Below are positions 2,936 to 12,152 of a DNA stretch of 29,826 nucleotides, piece by piece. The stretch's first letter is position 1. Each line of letters begins with the position of its first letter. Made by a program: the position numbers and the translations under genes. The stretch is from a virus. The notes below the pieces were generated by a model that was not told the DNA's origin, made no database searches, and saw only the letters and a program-made list of their open reading frames with translations. Where the stretch lies: the IMG/VR virus record IMGVR_UViG_3300021168_000073, positions 1-29,826 of that record; one strand, written 5' to 3'.

Positions 2936-3146
2936 TGGCCCGTTCTGTTTCCAAGTGGGCCAATCTCAGGCTGTTTAGGCCAGAACAAGATCATTGCTAT
3001 TAACTTCAACCGAAGTTGAAACGCCAGCAATCATTTTGTCGTAAATGCTTGTTTCAGCAGTTACTTGTTTGATTCTCGTATACGGTGAGCATCAATCCCG
3101 GCACGTCCACTACACTACATTATACTGTCGAAACCTTGGCACACCC
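2936..3146 (-). ncRNA. ssrA: Permuted tmRNA, coding piece (5' mature half)
   Basis: Transfer-messenger RNA rescues stalled ribosomes. On the minus strand the piece begins GGGTGTG (3146-3140), then CCAAGGTTTCGACAG, matching the conserved tmRNA 5' segment. GGGTGTG pairs with CACATCC of the acceptor piece at 3262-3268, giving 7 bp with G3-U70, the alanine identity pair. ACGTGC (3106-3101) and ATGTAGT (3120-3114) pair with the acceptor piece to form P2. A resume frame starts at 3058. After it, GTTCTG (2986-2981), TGGCCC (2962-2957), CAGAAC (2947-2942) and GGGCCA (2941-2936) form an H-type pseudoknot in the correct order. No T-arm follows, so the gene is permuted. Confidence 0.87.
2975..3058 (-). 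other. tmRNA proteolysis-tag reading frame (27 codons plus TAA)
   Basis: The frame starts with GCT (Ala resume codon) after AAGTAACT, reads AETSIYDKM and continues to SNDLVLA before TAA at 2977-2975. A hydrophobic, Ala-ending C-terminus is what tag-dependent proteases recognise; most bacterial tags end in A-A, so L-V-L-A is slightly atypical. At 27 residues the tag is longer than the common 8-15. The middle of the frame contains a TTCAAC-TTCG-GTTGAA hairpin. The exact resume codon is inferred from the tmRNA layout. Confidence 0.7.
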
Positions 3147-3257
3147 AAATTAATTAGCCCATGTGCATTACGCATTTGCACTCTCTAGAGGTTGCTGTAA
3201 ACGACTTGCGAGGAAGTGACCTTGCAACTCAATTTGGGCTAAACTTATTACAAAACT

Positions 3258-3326
3258 TGGTGGATGTGAGCGGACTCGAACCGCTGTCCAATATTACTTC
3301 ATGTAACTTCATACGTGCGTACTTAA
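3258..3326 (-). ncRNA. ssrA: Permuted tmRNA, acceptor piece (3' mature half)
   Basis: The minus strand reads TTGGACAGCGG-TTCGAGT-CCGCT-CACATCC-A-CCA, the T-arm, acceptor strand, discriminator and encoded CCA (3260-3258) of a tmRNA. Upstream, GTTACAT (3307-3301) and GCACGT (3318-3313) are the 3' strands of P2. The piece is transcribed before its 5' partner, and about 111 nt (3147-3257) separate them as the intervening segment. That segment contains its own AGCCCA/TGGGCT helix, and processing would excise it. The upstream end of the piece is not defined by sequence alone. Only about 100 nt (3340-3440) without a gene lie upstream. Confidence 0.85.
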
Positions 3327-3442
3327 AATGTTTTTCCCGGTAGGATTACTTCTCGCCAAACTATTGTAATAGATTCAGCCTTTGCCTACGCACCGCTAGC
3401 AAGACGGCATGGCTTGGTGTTTACCACTACGGGAAAAGTTGT

Positions 3443-4229: not shown

Positions 4230-4625
4230 TCATGGTTTCGGTAACTTGTCAAGTGCTTTTTGTAACTTTTTTATTGCGGCACTTTGATCTTTAGTAACCT
4301 CTCGGACCAAATATCCTAAATGATATGCAAATAACTCTTCCTCGTGTGTAGCGCCTATCCACTTAAATAGTGTCGATACAGCATGGTAGCATTCATGTGT
4401 TATCTGGTTACTGTCGGCATTCATCTTGAATACTAAATAGGAATAACTTTGGTTAGAGAACTTTATATGAAACGCACCTGTGGTTTCATCCCCCATGTCA
4501 GTGTTTTTGGCTAATAAACCCTGGCTTATCAACACTTTAGAGGTTTCTTTTAAACTTTCTGTAAATATGACATAAATACGATAGTCGTATAGAGGAAGGG
4601 GTATAAAGGTTTTAAATTCCATCAT
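4230..4625 (-). CDS. Putative zinc metallopeptidase-like protein (131 aa)
   Basis: An H-E-C-Y-H motif (ITHECYHAVSTL, near residues 76-87) matches the HExxH zinc-binding signature. It is followed about 10 residues later by THEEELFAYHLGYL, which could supply the third ligand, as in minimal gluzincin or ImmA-type domains common in phages. The protein is short and lacks other recognisable domains. Its ATG overlaps the TGA of the DNA polymerase gene (ATGA), so it is likely coupled to the polymerase. The substrate is unknown; activity is inferred from the motif only. Confidence 0.65.
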   Translation of the reverse strand: MMEFKTFIPLPLYDYRIYVIFTESLKETSKVLISQGLLAKNTDMGDETTGAFHIKFSNQSYSYLVFKMNADSNQITHECYHAVSTLFKWIGATHEEELFAYHLGYLVREVTKDQSAAIKKLQKALDKLPKP

Positions 4626-7330
4626 TTACTCCAATAAGGTCCAATGTTATAGTCGAATTCCATAATAACTTTTTTCATTTTAATAGCTGCTGCTCGTTTA
4701 AATGCATCTCCTATTAAAGCTGCAACTAATGAGCCATATTGTTTAGGGCAACTTACCACGAGTTCATCGTGTACGAATTTAATAAGCTTTGCACGATACT
4801 GCGGTAAAGTATGCCACAAGAACGGTTTACCATCGGGATCATAACCAGCGCCCATCGCAATCTTTGCAATACTGGCATTAGTTCCCTGAATTCGCATGTT
4901 CTTACCTTGGCGCTCAATGCTATTAGACATTTGATAATAGCTTCGAGAAATTTCATTCGCTGTCGGCTTTCTATGCGTTAATTCAAACTCTTCATCCTTT
5001 GTAGGTTTACGTCCCTTTGCAGTTACGAACGCATTGAGATTACGTTCCTTATCTTCATCAGAAAGACGTAACATCTTCTCGTTATATTCTTTACAGTTCT
5101 CTGTAGCCCTTGCGTGCGTGGGTTGAGGAAGGATTCTCCTACGACCATATAAATCGAACGCTTTGAAATCACGCGCTGCTTTTTTACCAGAAGCTTCTAG
5201 GTATTTCCAAACACCCGGATTCTTCTGCTCGTGAAGTGCCATTAATTGCTTTGCTACTTTTAATGGCTTCTTAATATTAGCAGCAAGCGTTGCAGGACCG
5301 CCGCCATAGGCAAGTAAGAAGTTACAAGCTTTGGTATCGTCACGGCGTACTTTATGACCCGGACATTTGCACTTCTCTTTTTTAGGATCGCCGGGTTTCG
5401 CTTTAGGATATTTCGCTAATGACTTTTCATCGTGTGGAATATAGTACTTGCAATCTGGCAATGCCTCTTTATGCCATTCTGTTTCGTAAAGCAGTTCGGT
5501 TCCGGCAGAGTGTAAATCTTCTCCGCGTTCGAATGCACCTACCCATTGAGGATCGCCAGAGTCTTCAGCAATGATGCGTAGTTCTGCACCGGACATATCA
5601 GCAGTGACGATTACATATTCTTCAGCATGAGTCTTGCAGAAACACGCACATTCACTGCAAACCAACGGTCCACTAGGGTCAGGAAATACGGACTCATTAC
5701 AGCAATCACTGAGTTGTATATCTTCATTAGGATCATCGGCAATAAAACAGTGACGCACTTCCGTATCTTGTGGAAGATTCTGCCCGTTCGGTTGAGATGA
5801 ACTACTGCGGCCTGTACCGGCATCATATTGATTAAACGTTGAATGCAAACGTCCATCGCCGGGATGTAACCAGCCTTCCTCTTTACCGGGTTTCGTTTTC
5901 CATTGTGTCGCCCATGCATCCCCATATGTTCCAATTTCCTTGGAAACACCATGATATTCCCGAATTAATTTCATTACAGGAATATGTTCATATTTCTCTA
6001 ACAGTTCATCGTCAAGTGTTTCAATCTTCGCTAGTTGTTTGAAATTGTCTCGCAAACAATGCATAAGCTGTGCGTCTGAACCATAGTTAATTAGTGCTTC
6101 GCCTTCGCAGTCGGCTTTGAGTTTATTAATCTTGGTACGTTTCTTTTTTAAGTCACCGCATTCTTTCTTAAGAACCTCTTTCAAAGCTTTCCGATCCTGT
6201 TCAATCTGTGATAACTTTATCTGTAATTGTGCTGCTTCTGATTGCAATTCAGGCGTATCGGGAAACTTTTTAAGCTGTTTGTTTATCTCTTTTATTTTCA
6301 ATAGTAAAGTAATCTCTTCGTCGAAAGGAATATTATAGGATTTCCACTTAAGTTCTAGTGCGGCAATCTTCGCATCATCAATAGCCTCATGCTTAGACCC
6401 TACAATTGGAATGAAAATCTTATCCAAACTTTTGAGAATTTCTTCTAATCTTACTTTTGACTTGGCTACACGAGCTAACCAACGTTCTGTGTCGATACGT
6501 TCCCCGTGTACGTGCATAAAAACGAATGCGCCCAGTGCCTCGTTCTCAATTTTAATAACTTCATGTAGATTATCACCAAGAATCAAACTATCAAGATAAC
6601 AAAGCTGTTCTGCTAGTTTTGGCTTTCCTGCTTTCTCTAAACTTGCAACGGTTTCTCCACTTGCAATAATATTTTGGAACATCTTGATTGCTAACGGCAT
6701 ACGTGTATCTAAGGCAGCGTATTCGTACTGAGCGTCGGTTATTTCATCTTCAAGATTAAATGAGGTTTGGAGTTCTTTATCTATGATTACACCAAAATAA
6801 CGCTCGGCCATTGAATCCATTGCGTAAAAATCGTAATTCTTAAGAGATGCCTTTCCGCCTAAACCCGCGTATAAGCACTTTTCAGCTAATAGACAATCAT
6901 ACCAACCATACGCCGCTATTCCGAACATCCAATATAAACTTTCGCACTCAAAGCTTAAATTTACACCCGTTTTAATCCACTTATCTGAACATAAATAAGG
7001 AGTTAACTTCTGTAATAATTGCTGTAATTTAGGCGCTTTATGGAGATTCTTACCGTATTCTCCCTGACAATCATAGAGTAAATCGGCTGAATTATCGCAA
7101 AATGCTCTCAAATCTATGACATATTGTTCTTGTGCGGTACCGAATTGCATGGTACGCATTCTGCGCCAATAAAAGTCGTTAGTGACTGTAGTTTCAACGT
7201 CATAGCCGAAATCTGGTGTTTTTTCTAAAAAGTTTAGCAACTTTTCTACGCCGTCTGCATCTAATACTTTAACGATGTTTGGTGGCGGATTCAAGACCAG
7301 TGGTTTTAGTTCGCGTTCTTTAATTAGCAT
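4622..7330 (-). CDS. DNA polymerase I (family A) with 3'-5' exonuclease domain
   Basis: A 902-residue family A polymerase for phage DNA replication. The proofreading domain shows Exo I as GYDVETT (D44, E46), with further exonuclease-type motifs in the first 230 residues. The polymerase domain has motif A as VTADMSGAELR (about 570-582), motif B as VRRDDTKACNFLLAYGGG (about 660-677) and motif C as VHDELVV (about 850). All catalytic Asp/Lys positions are kept. Cysteine clusters just before motif A (DCCN, VCSECACFCKTH) and motif B (CKCPGH) suggest zinc-binding insertions. No 5' nuclease domain is present. The promoter at 7339-7366 places the transcript start within about 2 nt of the ATG, and no ribosome binding site is seen. 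Confidence 0.96.
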   Translation of the reverse strand: MLIKERELKPLVLNPPPNIVKVLDADGVEKLLNFLEKTPDFGYDVETTVTNDFYWRRMRTMQFGTAQEQYVIDLRAFCDNSADLLYDCQGEYGKNLHKAPKLQQLLQKLTPYLCSDKWIKTGVNLSFECESLYWMFGIAAYGWYDCLLAEKCLYAGLGGKASLKNYDFYAMDSMAERYFGVIIDKELQTSFNLEDEITDAQYEYAALDTRMPLAIKMFQNIIASGETVASLEKAGKPKLAEQLCYLDSLILGDNLHEVIKIENEALGAFVFMHVHGERIDTERWLARVAKSKVRLEEILKSLDKIFIPIVGSKHEAIDDAKIAALELKWKSYNIPFDEEITLLLKIKEINKQLKKFPDTPELQSEAAQLQIKLSQIEQDRKALKEVLKKECGDLKKKRTKINKLKADCEGEALINYGSDAQLMHCLRDNFKQLAKIETLDDELLEKYEHIPVMKLIREYHGVSKEIGTYGDAWATQWKTKPGKEEGWLHPGDGRLHSTFNQYDAGTGRSSSSQPNGQNLPQDTEVRHCFIADDPNEDIQLSDCCNESVFPDPSGPLVCSECACFCKTHAEEYVIVTADMSGAELRIIAEDSGDPQWVGAFERGEDLHSAGTELLYETEWHKEALPDCKYYIPHDEKSLAKYPKAKPGDPKKEKCKCPGHKVRRDDTKACNFLLAYGGGPATLAANIKKPLKVAKQLMALHEQKNPGVWKYLEASGKKAARDFKAFDLYGRRRILPQPTHARATENCKEYNEKMLRLSDEDKERNLNAFVTAKGRKPTKDEEFELTHRKPTANEISRSYYQMSNSIERQGKNMRIQGTNASIAKIAMGAGYDPDGKPFLWHTLPQYRAKLIKFVHDELVVSCPKQYGSLVAALIGDAFKRAAAIKMKKVIMEFDYNIGPYWSK

Positions 7331-11732: not shown

Positions 11733-12152
11733 ATGTTCTCGAAAGTGAAAGTGAACAAAGGGGCTTTAAATCACTTTCGGAAACGCGCACGAGAGGCTTT
11801 TCCCCTTGAGATTCAAGCCTATTGTATAGGTAGAGTCGTATCTGTTAATGAAATTGAAATTACAAAGTTTGTTTATCCTAAAGAATACGCCACACAGACT
11901 CGTGAAAAAGTACAATGGTATCAAGCTGAATTAGATGAAGTTAAAGCCAAAGCAATAGAAATGGAACAAATGATAATCGGTGATATCCACAGCCACCCCT
12001 CGTGGGACGCGGTAATGAGTCCATCCGATTACGCTGCATGTCTAGAACAAGCCGCTCACATAGCGGGAATAGTTTCTGTTAATAATGGAAAAACGAGAGC
12101 ACGTTTCTGGACACCAACTTCCGCCCTACCTTGTAAGATTATATACACTTAA
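11733..12152 (+). CDS. JAMM/MPN+ metalloprotease domain protein (139 aa)
   Basis: H86-S-H88-P, seven residues, then S96 and D99 fit the JAMM motif HxHx7Sx2D, and E26 (FPLE) can be the catalytic glutamate. These proteins are zinc isopeptidases or proteases; phage members include tail-assembly proteases such as lambda K. Here the gene precedes the terminase rather than a tail module, and there is no NlpC/P60 domain. It could trim a virion protein or act on a host conjugate; the substrate is unknown. The ATG at 11733 follows CCGGAGGATC. Confidence 0.85.
   Translation: MFSKVKVNKGALNHFRKRAREAFPLEIQAYCIGRVVSVNEIEITKFVYPKEYATQTREKVQWYQAELDEVKAKAIEMEQMIIGDIHSHPSWDAVMSPSDYAACLEQAAHIAGIVSVNNGKTRARFWTPTSALPCKIIYT

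Follow-up and report, generated by a model that had tools for sequence, protein, structure and literature searches.

The window, the whole stretch of 29,826 bases that was analysed, is a virus record whose genes include a family A DNA polymerase, a large terminase, a portal and a major head protein. Judged from its sequence, it is part of the genome of a tailed phage kin to Tunturiibacter phage Tunturi_3, whose host belongs to the Acidobacteriota. Tunturi_3, isolated on Tunturiibacter psychrotolerans, is the closest annotated phage by terminase (54.9% identity across the whole protein). ARAGORN finds seven tRNA genes on the minus strand of the window and two on the plus strand. A protein with a Prok-JAB domain (11733-12152, 4.6e-9) lies within the structural gene region.

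The minus strand at 2936-3320 encodes a circularly permuted (two-piece) tmRNA, a reading proposed in the first-pass annotation of this phage tRNA cluster and now confirmed. The Rfam model RF04321 (tmRNA_permuted) matches 2975-3318 of the minus strand over the full length of the model (73.2 bits, E 1.7e-12), and the ARAGORN call in the window is tmRNA* (permuted), on the same strand. In the order of transcription, the acceptor piece comes first, then an intervening segment of 111 nt, then a coding piece that starts at G3146 (Table 1). This is the permuted order: the 3' tRNA-like half is encoded upstream of the 5' half. Between the two halves GGGUGUG pairs with CACAUCC at 7 of 7 positions, including G3-U70, the pair on which the charging of tmRNA with alanine depends. 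The other parts that had been read from the letters are present as well: a T-arm and acceptor with CCA upstream of a tmRNA 5' end, at about the places assigned to them, a P2 helix across the two pieces, and a tag frame of 27 codons.

Table 1. Features of the tmRNA locus and its neighbours in the window.
Feature	Position	Strand	Basis or remark
Acceptor piece (exact 5' end approximate)	3258-3320	minus	RF04321 match, stem pairing and covariation
P2, core of 3' strand	3313-3318	minus	within acceptor piece
T-arm	3269-3285	minus	within acceptor piece
Acceptor stem, 3' strand	3262-3268	minus	within acceptor piece
Discriminator A	3261	minus	within acceptor piece
Encoded CCA	3258-3260	minus	within acceptor piece
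Intervening segment, 111 nt	3147-3257	minus	expected to be processed out (predicted removal)
Coding piece: tRNA-like 5' domain, tag frame, 3' hairpin/pseudoknot (3' end approximate)	2936-3146	minus	RF04321, pairing
Acceptor stem, 5' strand GGGUGUG	3140-3146	minus	within coding piece
P2, core of 5' strand	3101-3106	minus	pairs with 3313-3318
Tag reading frame AETSIYDKMIAGVSTSVEVNSNDLVLA and stop UAA	2975-3058	minus	27 codons plus stop
3' structure past the tag	2936-2969	minus	two candidate helices
Helix UGGCCC (2957-2962) with GGGCCA (2936-2941)	2936-2962	minus	supported by covariation
Possible second helix	CUGAG (2965-2969) with CUUGG (2951-2955)	minus	not above shuffling
tRNA genes, seven (Ser, Ser, Leu, Tyr, Met, Pro, His)	99-2925	minus	ARAGORN; downstream of tmRNA, same strand
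Phage family A DNA polymerase gene	4622-7330	minus	conserved upstream neighbour of tmRNA in relatives

Upstream of the acceptor piece, at 3330-3435 of the minus strand, there may be a leader element. The candidate has complementary ends (UUCCCG and CGGGAA) and a common stretch, GUGGUAAACACCAAGCCAUG, and appears in three phages (that of the window, L125 and L465/L504); its folding stability is not unusual (z -1.23). Scans for promoters and terminators gave counts near or little above chance (promoter-like sites: 9 found, 5.8 expected). In L504, positions 1231-1334 of the plus strand, upstream of the tmRNA, match the YrlA (Y RNA-like) model weakly (31.9 bits, cut-off 69, E 0.0043).

Folding of the single sequence 2936-3330 gives a stability that is not unusual (z -1.06), and this counts against the reading. 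Relatives were gathered with a profile of the DNA polymerase, yielding 29 viral contigs which with Tunturi_3 make 30 records; the same profile found no relative among genome contigs, and blastn of the tmRNA against the phage collection gave no match, Tunturi_3 included. RF04321 scores above its cut-off in 23 of the 30 records, counting L124, a longer contig of the phage in the window (polymerase 100% identical), and the 23 collapse to 17 distinct sequences. The helix strands were chosen by eye with conserved anchors as guides, a procedure biased towards pairing, and the shuffling statistics ignore kinship between the sequences. On these terms the acceptor stem is paired in 119 of 119 cells in the 17 relatives (0 of 2000 shuffles as good) and P2 between the pieces in 98 of 102 (0 of 5000 shuffles as good). 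The acceptor stem has changed in compensatory fashion, with 3, 4 and 4 pair types at positions 4 to 6, while G3-U70 is invariant. An automatic rule finds the stem in 17 of 24 sequences (the window and 23 loci) and G3-U70 in all 17. Homologues that had lost the pairing of acceptor and P2 would have spoken against the first-pass annotation; the pairing has been kept.

The same annotation had described an H-type pseudoknot past the tag, and here the relatives bear out one half of it. The helix GGCCC/GGGCC covaries, with pairing in 60 of 60 cells across 10 relatives. The second, CUGAG/CUUGG, is paired in 59 of 65 cells across 13 relatives, a result that 342 of 5000 shuffles match and that does not stand clearly above shuffling.

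Some relatives depart from the common pattern at the 3' end or in the T-loop. L512 has CCC in place of CCA after the discriminator base, so that its 3' end would need a CCA-adding enzyme of the host, or is altered. The T-loops are non-standard in L498 and L508 (GGCGGCA and GGCAGAA) and in L511 and L513 (UAGCAUA). Those of L498 and L508 resemble the GGCGGUA of three alphaproteobacterial tmRNAs; the rest of the clade has UUCGANN-like loops.

The gene also keeps its place. Of the 22 viral records that RF04321 matches, 21 have the tmRNA on the strand of the DNA polymerase, at a distance of 490-2396 nt downstream of it. In the exception, L479, the tmRNA stands at the opposite end of the contig (98.6 kb), which would be compatible with a circular map. 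In Tunturi_3 (PP885686), it is about 1.2 kb downstream of the polymerase. It is unannotated in that record, the word tmRNA is absent from the main text of the Tunturi_3 paper (PMC11924767), and ARAGORN does not find the permuted tmRNA there. Annotators should be aware that this program misses some phage forms. The 7 records with no RF04321 match have only 254-2283 nt of contig left downstream of the polymerase. The data fit a tmRNA that is a core gene of the clade, a claim limited by these short-ended records, above all by L482 and L490, where the remaining 2.28 and 1.35 kb of contig contain no tmRNA.

It is worth asking whether a more ordinary gene could masquerade as a permuted one. A standard one-piece tmRNA can be rejected for the window: the unpermuted model RF00023 gives no full-length match above its cut-off of 47 bits. 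Its matches are confined to two parts, in swapped order, which at 45.0 and 31.4 bits fall short of that value. Had the unpermuted form alone scored, the claim of permutation would have fallen; instead it is RF04321 that matches in full. As for the older clade models, the window's sequence scores 45.8 bits with RF01850 (beta_tmRNA), short of the cut-off of 84, and has no match listed with RF01849 (alpha_tmRNA, cut-off 50 bits).

RF04321 is by itself no proof, because the model also scores where a standard tmRNA is directly preceded by a tRNA or by another tmRNA. This came to light in the Acidobacteriota. RF04321 scores above its cut-off in 9 of 297 sampled genomes, matches that were first taken for permuted tmRNAs of hosts. 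They were rejected as such, since each of the 9 matches overlaps a standard one-piece tmRNA (149-198 bits). ARAGORN, run on 6 of the 9, calls a standard tmRNA in all 6, directly preceded by a tRNA-Asp in 5 of them; in the sixth (L640) a second RF00023 match (110.5 bits) lies just upstream of the standard tmRNA. Another 79 of the 297 genomes have weaker RF04321 matches, below cut-off, the check for overlap covering the 9. False annotations of permuted tmRNAs may arise in this way.

One might then suppose that the phage locus is a non-functional remnant or an artefact, either a piece of a tRNA next to a standard tmRNA or host DNA picked up by accident, and the false matches just described lend the idea its substance. 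Yet the acceptor and P2 stems covary across diverged phages, the genomic place is conserved, and the window contains no standard 3' half. For the window, the artefact of a tRNA beside a tmRNA is excluded: the acceptor halves not only pair but covary in relatives, and no tRNA call by ARAGORN falls on the acceptor piece. I find the notion of a remnant or artefact scarcely credible.

The likely host presents a different picture. Among 100 genomes of the family to which an Edaphobacter lichenicola genome belongs, 83 have RF00023 matches above cut-off, that genome's own scoring 165.6 bits. (Members of Edaphobacter have in part been renamed Tunturiibacter.) The two-piece form of the phage thus appears to differ from the form in the likely host phylum, because the sampled tmRNAs of Acidobacteriota are one-piece, the host being deduced by way of Tunturi_3 and the phylum represented by a sample. 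Where, then, did the phage gene come from? RF01850 is the best of the older clade models for 13 of the 16 relatives examined, none of which reaches 84 bits with it, and RF01849 is best and above cut-off in 2 of 16 (L498 and L508). Over a 157-nt excerpt, the 17 relatives have identities of 0.46-0.61 with the best alphaproteobacterial permuted tmRNA and 0.61-0.76 with the best permuted tmRNA from other viruses, a comparison too weak to name a donor.

The tags encoded by the clade are of uncommon length. Leaving aside L494, whose contig ends inside the tag, all 16 relatives with a complete frame have an open tag with a stop, ending in alanine in 15. Their lengths are 12, 14, 26, 26, 26, 27, 27, 28, 28, 30, 33, 33, 34, 35, 36 and 37 residues, the starts being set by eye from conserved upstream sequence and uncertain by about one codon in L491, L497, L502, L504 and L508. 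Tags of alphaproteobacterial tmRNAs have 10-13 residues (30 ARAGORN calls in 32 loci, mostly the best-scoring ones), and those of Acidobacteriota 8-10 (18 ARAGORN calls, all one-piece, in 19 loci). The tag of mycobacteriophage Bxz1 tmRNA is also about 25 residues long. For other viral permuted tmRNAs, ARAGORN made 371 calls in 461 loci among the matches listed, a few members of the clade included; 189 of these calls have 10-residue tags and 76 have 20 or more (20-33), some of them probably miscalls. Among the matches listed, the distribution of tag length in viral permuted tmRNAs looks bimodal.

Might such tags act beyond marking proteins for the usual proteases, perhaps steering them elsewhere or serving as peptides, on top of the rescue of ribosomes? 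That 14 of the 16 relatives have tags of 26-37 residues, set against the short ones of alphaproteobacteria and Acidobacteriota, invites the thought, as do the YD[KE]M core and the LVMA or LVLA end found in five of them: L495, L497, L504, L513 and L499, the last being the window's sequence. In this subgroup 19 differing codon pairs are synonymous and 38 non-synonymous, which is weak evidence of translation. But the tags vary strongly, two are short, several end in LAA like ordinary degrons, and, judging by the 76 of 371 calls, long tags are not confined to the clade. I consider an additional action of the tags unlikely. A broader proposal, that a core permuted tmRNA foreign in form to the host phylum carries long, lineage-specific tags that do more than feed the usual proteases, is little better than a long shot. 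If true, it would make trans-translation an effector pathway of the phage in a lineage of soil phages.

I propose instead that the gene form, the conserved pairing, the synteny and the open tag frames observed in these phages are best explained by a working phage-borne two-piece tmRNA, which I hold to be quite probable. The phage would then bring along an RNA of its own for rescuing ribosomes, as the first-pass annotation had inferred. The transcript of a permuted tmRNA is cut by tRNA-processing enzymes, base pairs hold the pieces together, and SmpB is the partner, according to PMC11915505 and PMC9004378. From sequence I infer how the phage RNA would be expressed, processed, charged and used in tagging, and what benefit it might bring. 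A precursor would be transcribed leftward, and tRNA-processing enzymes of the host would cut out the intervening segment, leaving the acceptor and coding pieces held together through the acceptor stem and P2. The alanyl-tRNA synthetase of the host would charge the RNA by virtue of G3-U70, and SmpB would bring it to ribosomes stalled on broken mRNA. That SmpB would need to be the host's, since none is found in the 30 related records, many of them fragments. Translation would restart at GCU, adding the phage-specific tag of 27 residues before normal release. The likeliest benefit would be that ribosomes stay in use as mRNA is broken down during infection. A release-factor-like protein with an RF-1 domain is encoded in 3 of the 30 related records, Tunturi_3 (gp125, 33669-34007) and those behind L487 and L473, 2 of them above the Pfam cut-off; it could be a second ribosome-rescue factor beside the tmRNA.

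An opposite role can be imagined, in which the phage RNA ties up SmpB or the ribosome sites of the host's one-piece tmRNA, with no rescue for the phage. The likely host phylum does possess its own one-piece tmRNA for such a competitor to oppose, and there is a precedent of sorts in phage DS6A, which, as described in PMC4131195 and PMC11915505, carries little beyond the tRNA-like domain, a kind of molecule that inhibits tmRNA. A tag frame would be superfluous in a pure competitor, yet every one of the 16 complete relatives keeps its tag open and terminated, and I judge this role very improbable.

The first-pass annotation implied that two-piece tmRNAs are rare in phages, which the evidence does not bear out. 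PMC9004378 reports a scan of 18,146 phage genomes, of which 402 encode 133 unique tmRNA structures; 53 of the 133 are two-piece forms, 50 of these 53 from marine or aquatic samples. Permuted-pattern scans of viral contigs gave at least 120 matches at each of three spacer ranges, and so the kind is common; the matches of a separate, looser scan, with only 16 fixed bases, are probably due to chance. The phage form itself is therefore already published. What is new is a two-piece phage tmRNA in a soil clade linked to a phage of Acidobacteriota, in a conserved place and with long tags, which extends to soil a form known until now chiefly from marine and aquatic phages. Full-text literature searches, whose scope took in few subscription papers, turned up no description of a permuted tmRNA from a phage of Acidobacteriota.

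Among the closest parallels are two-piece tmRNAs of marine phages such as the Methylophilales phage Melnitz (PMC9004378), which likewise encodes a permuted ssrA whose form has its closest counterpart outside the host lineage. The Melnitz gene is alphaproteobacteria-like and marine, whereas that of the window belongs to a soil clade, sits beside the DNA polymerase and encodes a 27-residue tag. The two-piece tmRNAs of alphaproteobacteria share the permuted order and the acceptor identity with the window's and differ in their shorter tags. The one-piece tmRNAs of Acidobacteriota, unlike the window's, have the standard gene order and tags of 8-10 residues; their general role is the same. Tunturi_3 is the nearest cultured member of the clade and so offers a cultivable phage and host whose two tmRNAs can be distinguished through their sizes, their processing and their tags. 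The targets that phage tmRNAs tag, and the reason for the tagging, thus become directly testable. The Tunturi_3 tmRNA is like the window's in clade, in its place by the polymerase, in G3-U70 and in its long tag (about 33 residues), and differs from it in an intervening segment of 25 nt rather than 111, the acceptor stem sequence GGGCUUG and a tag that ends in MLAA.
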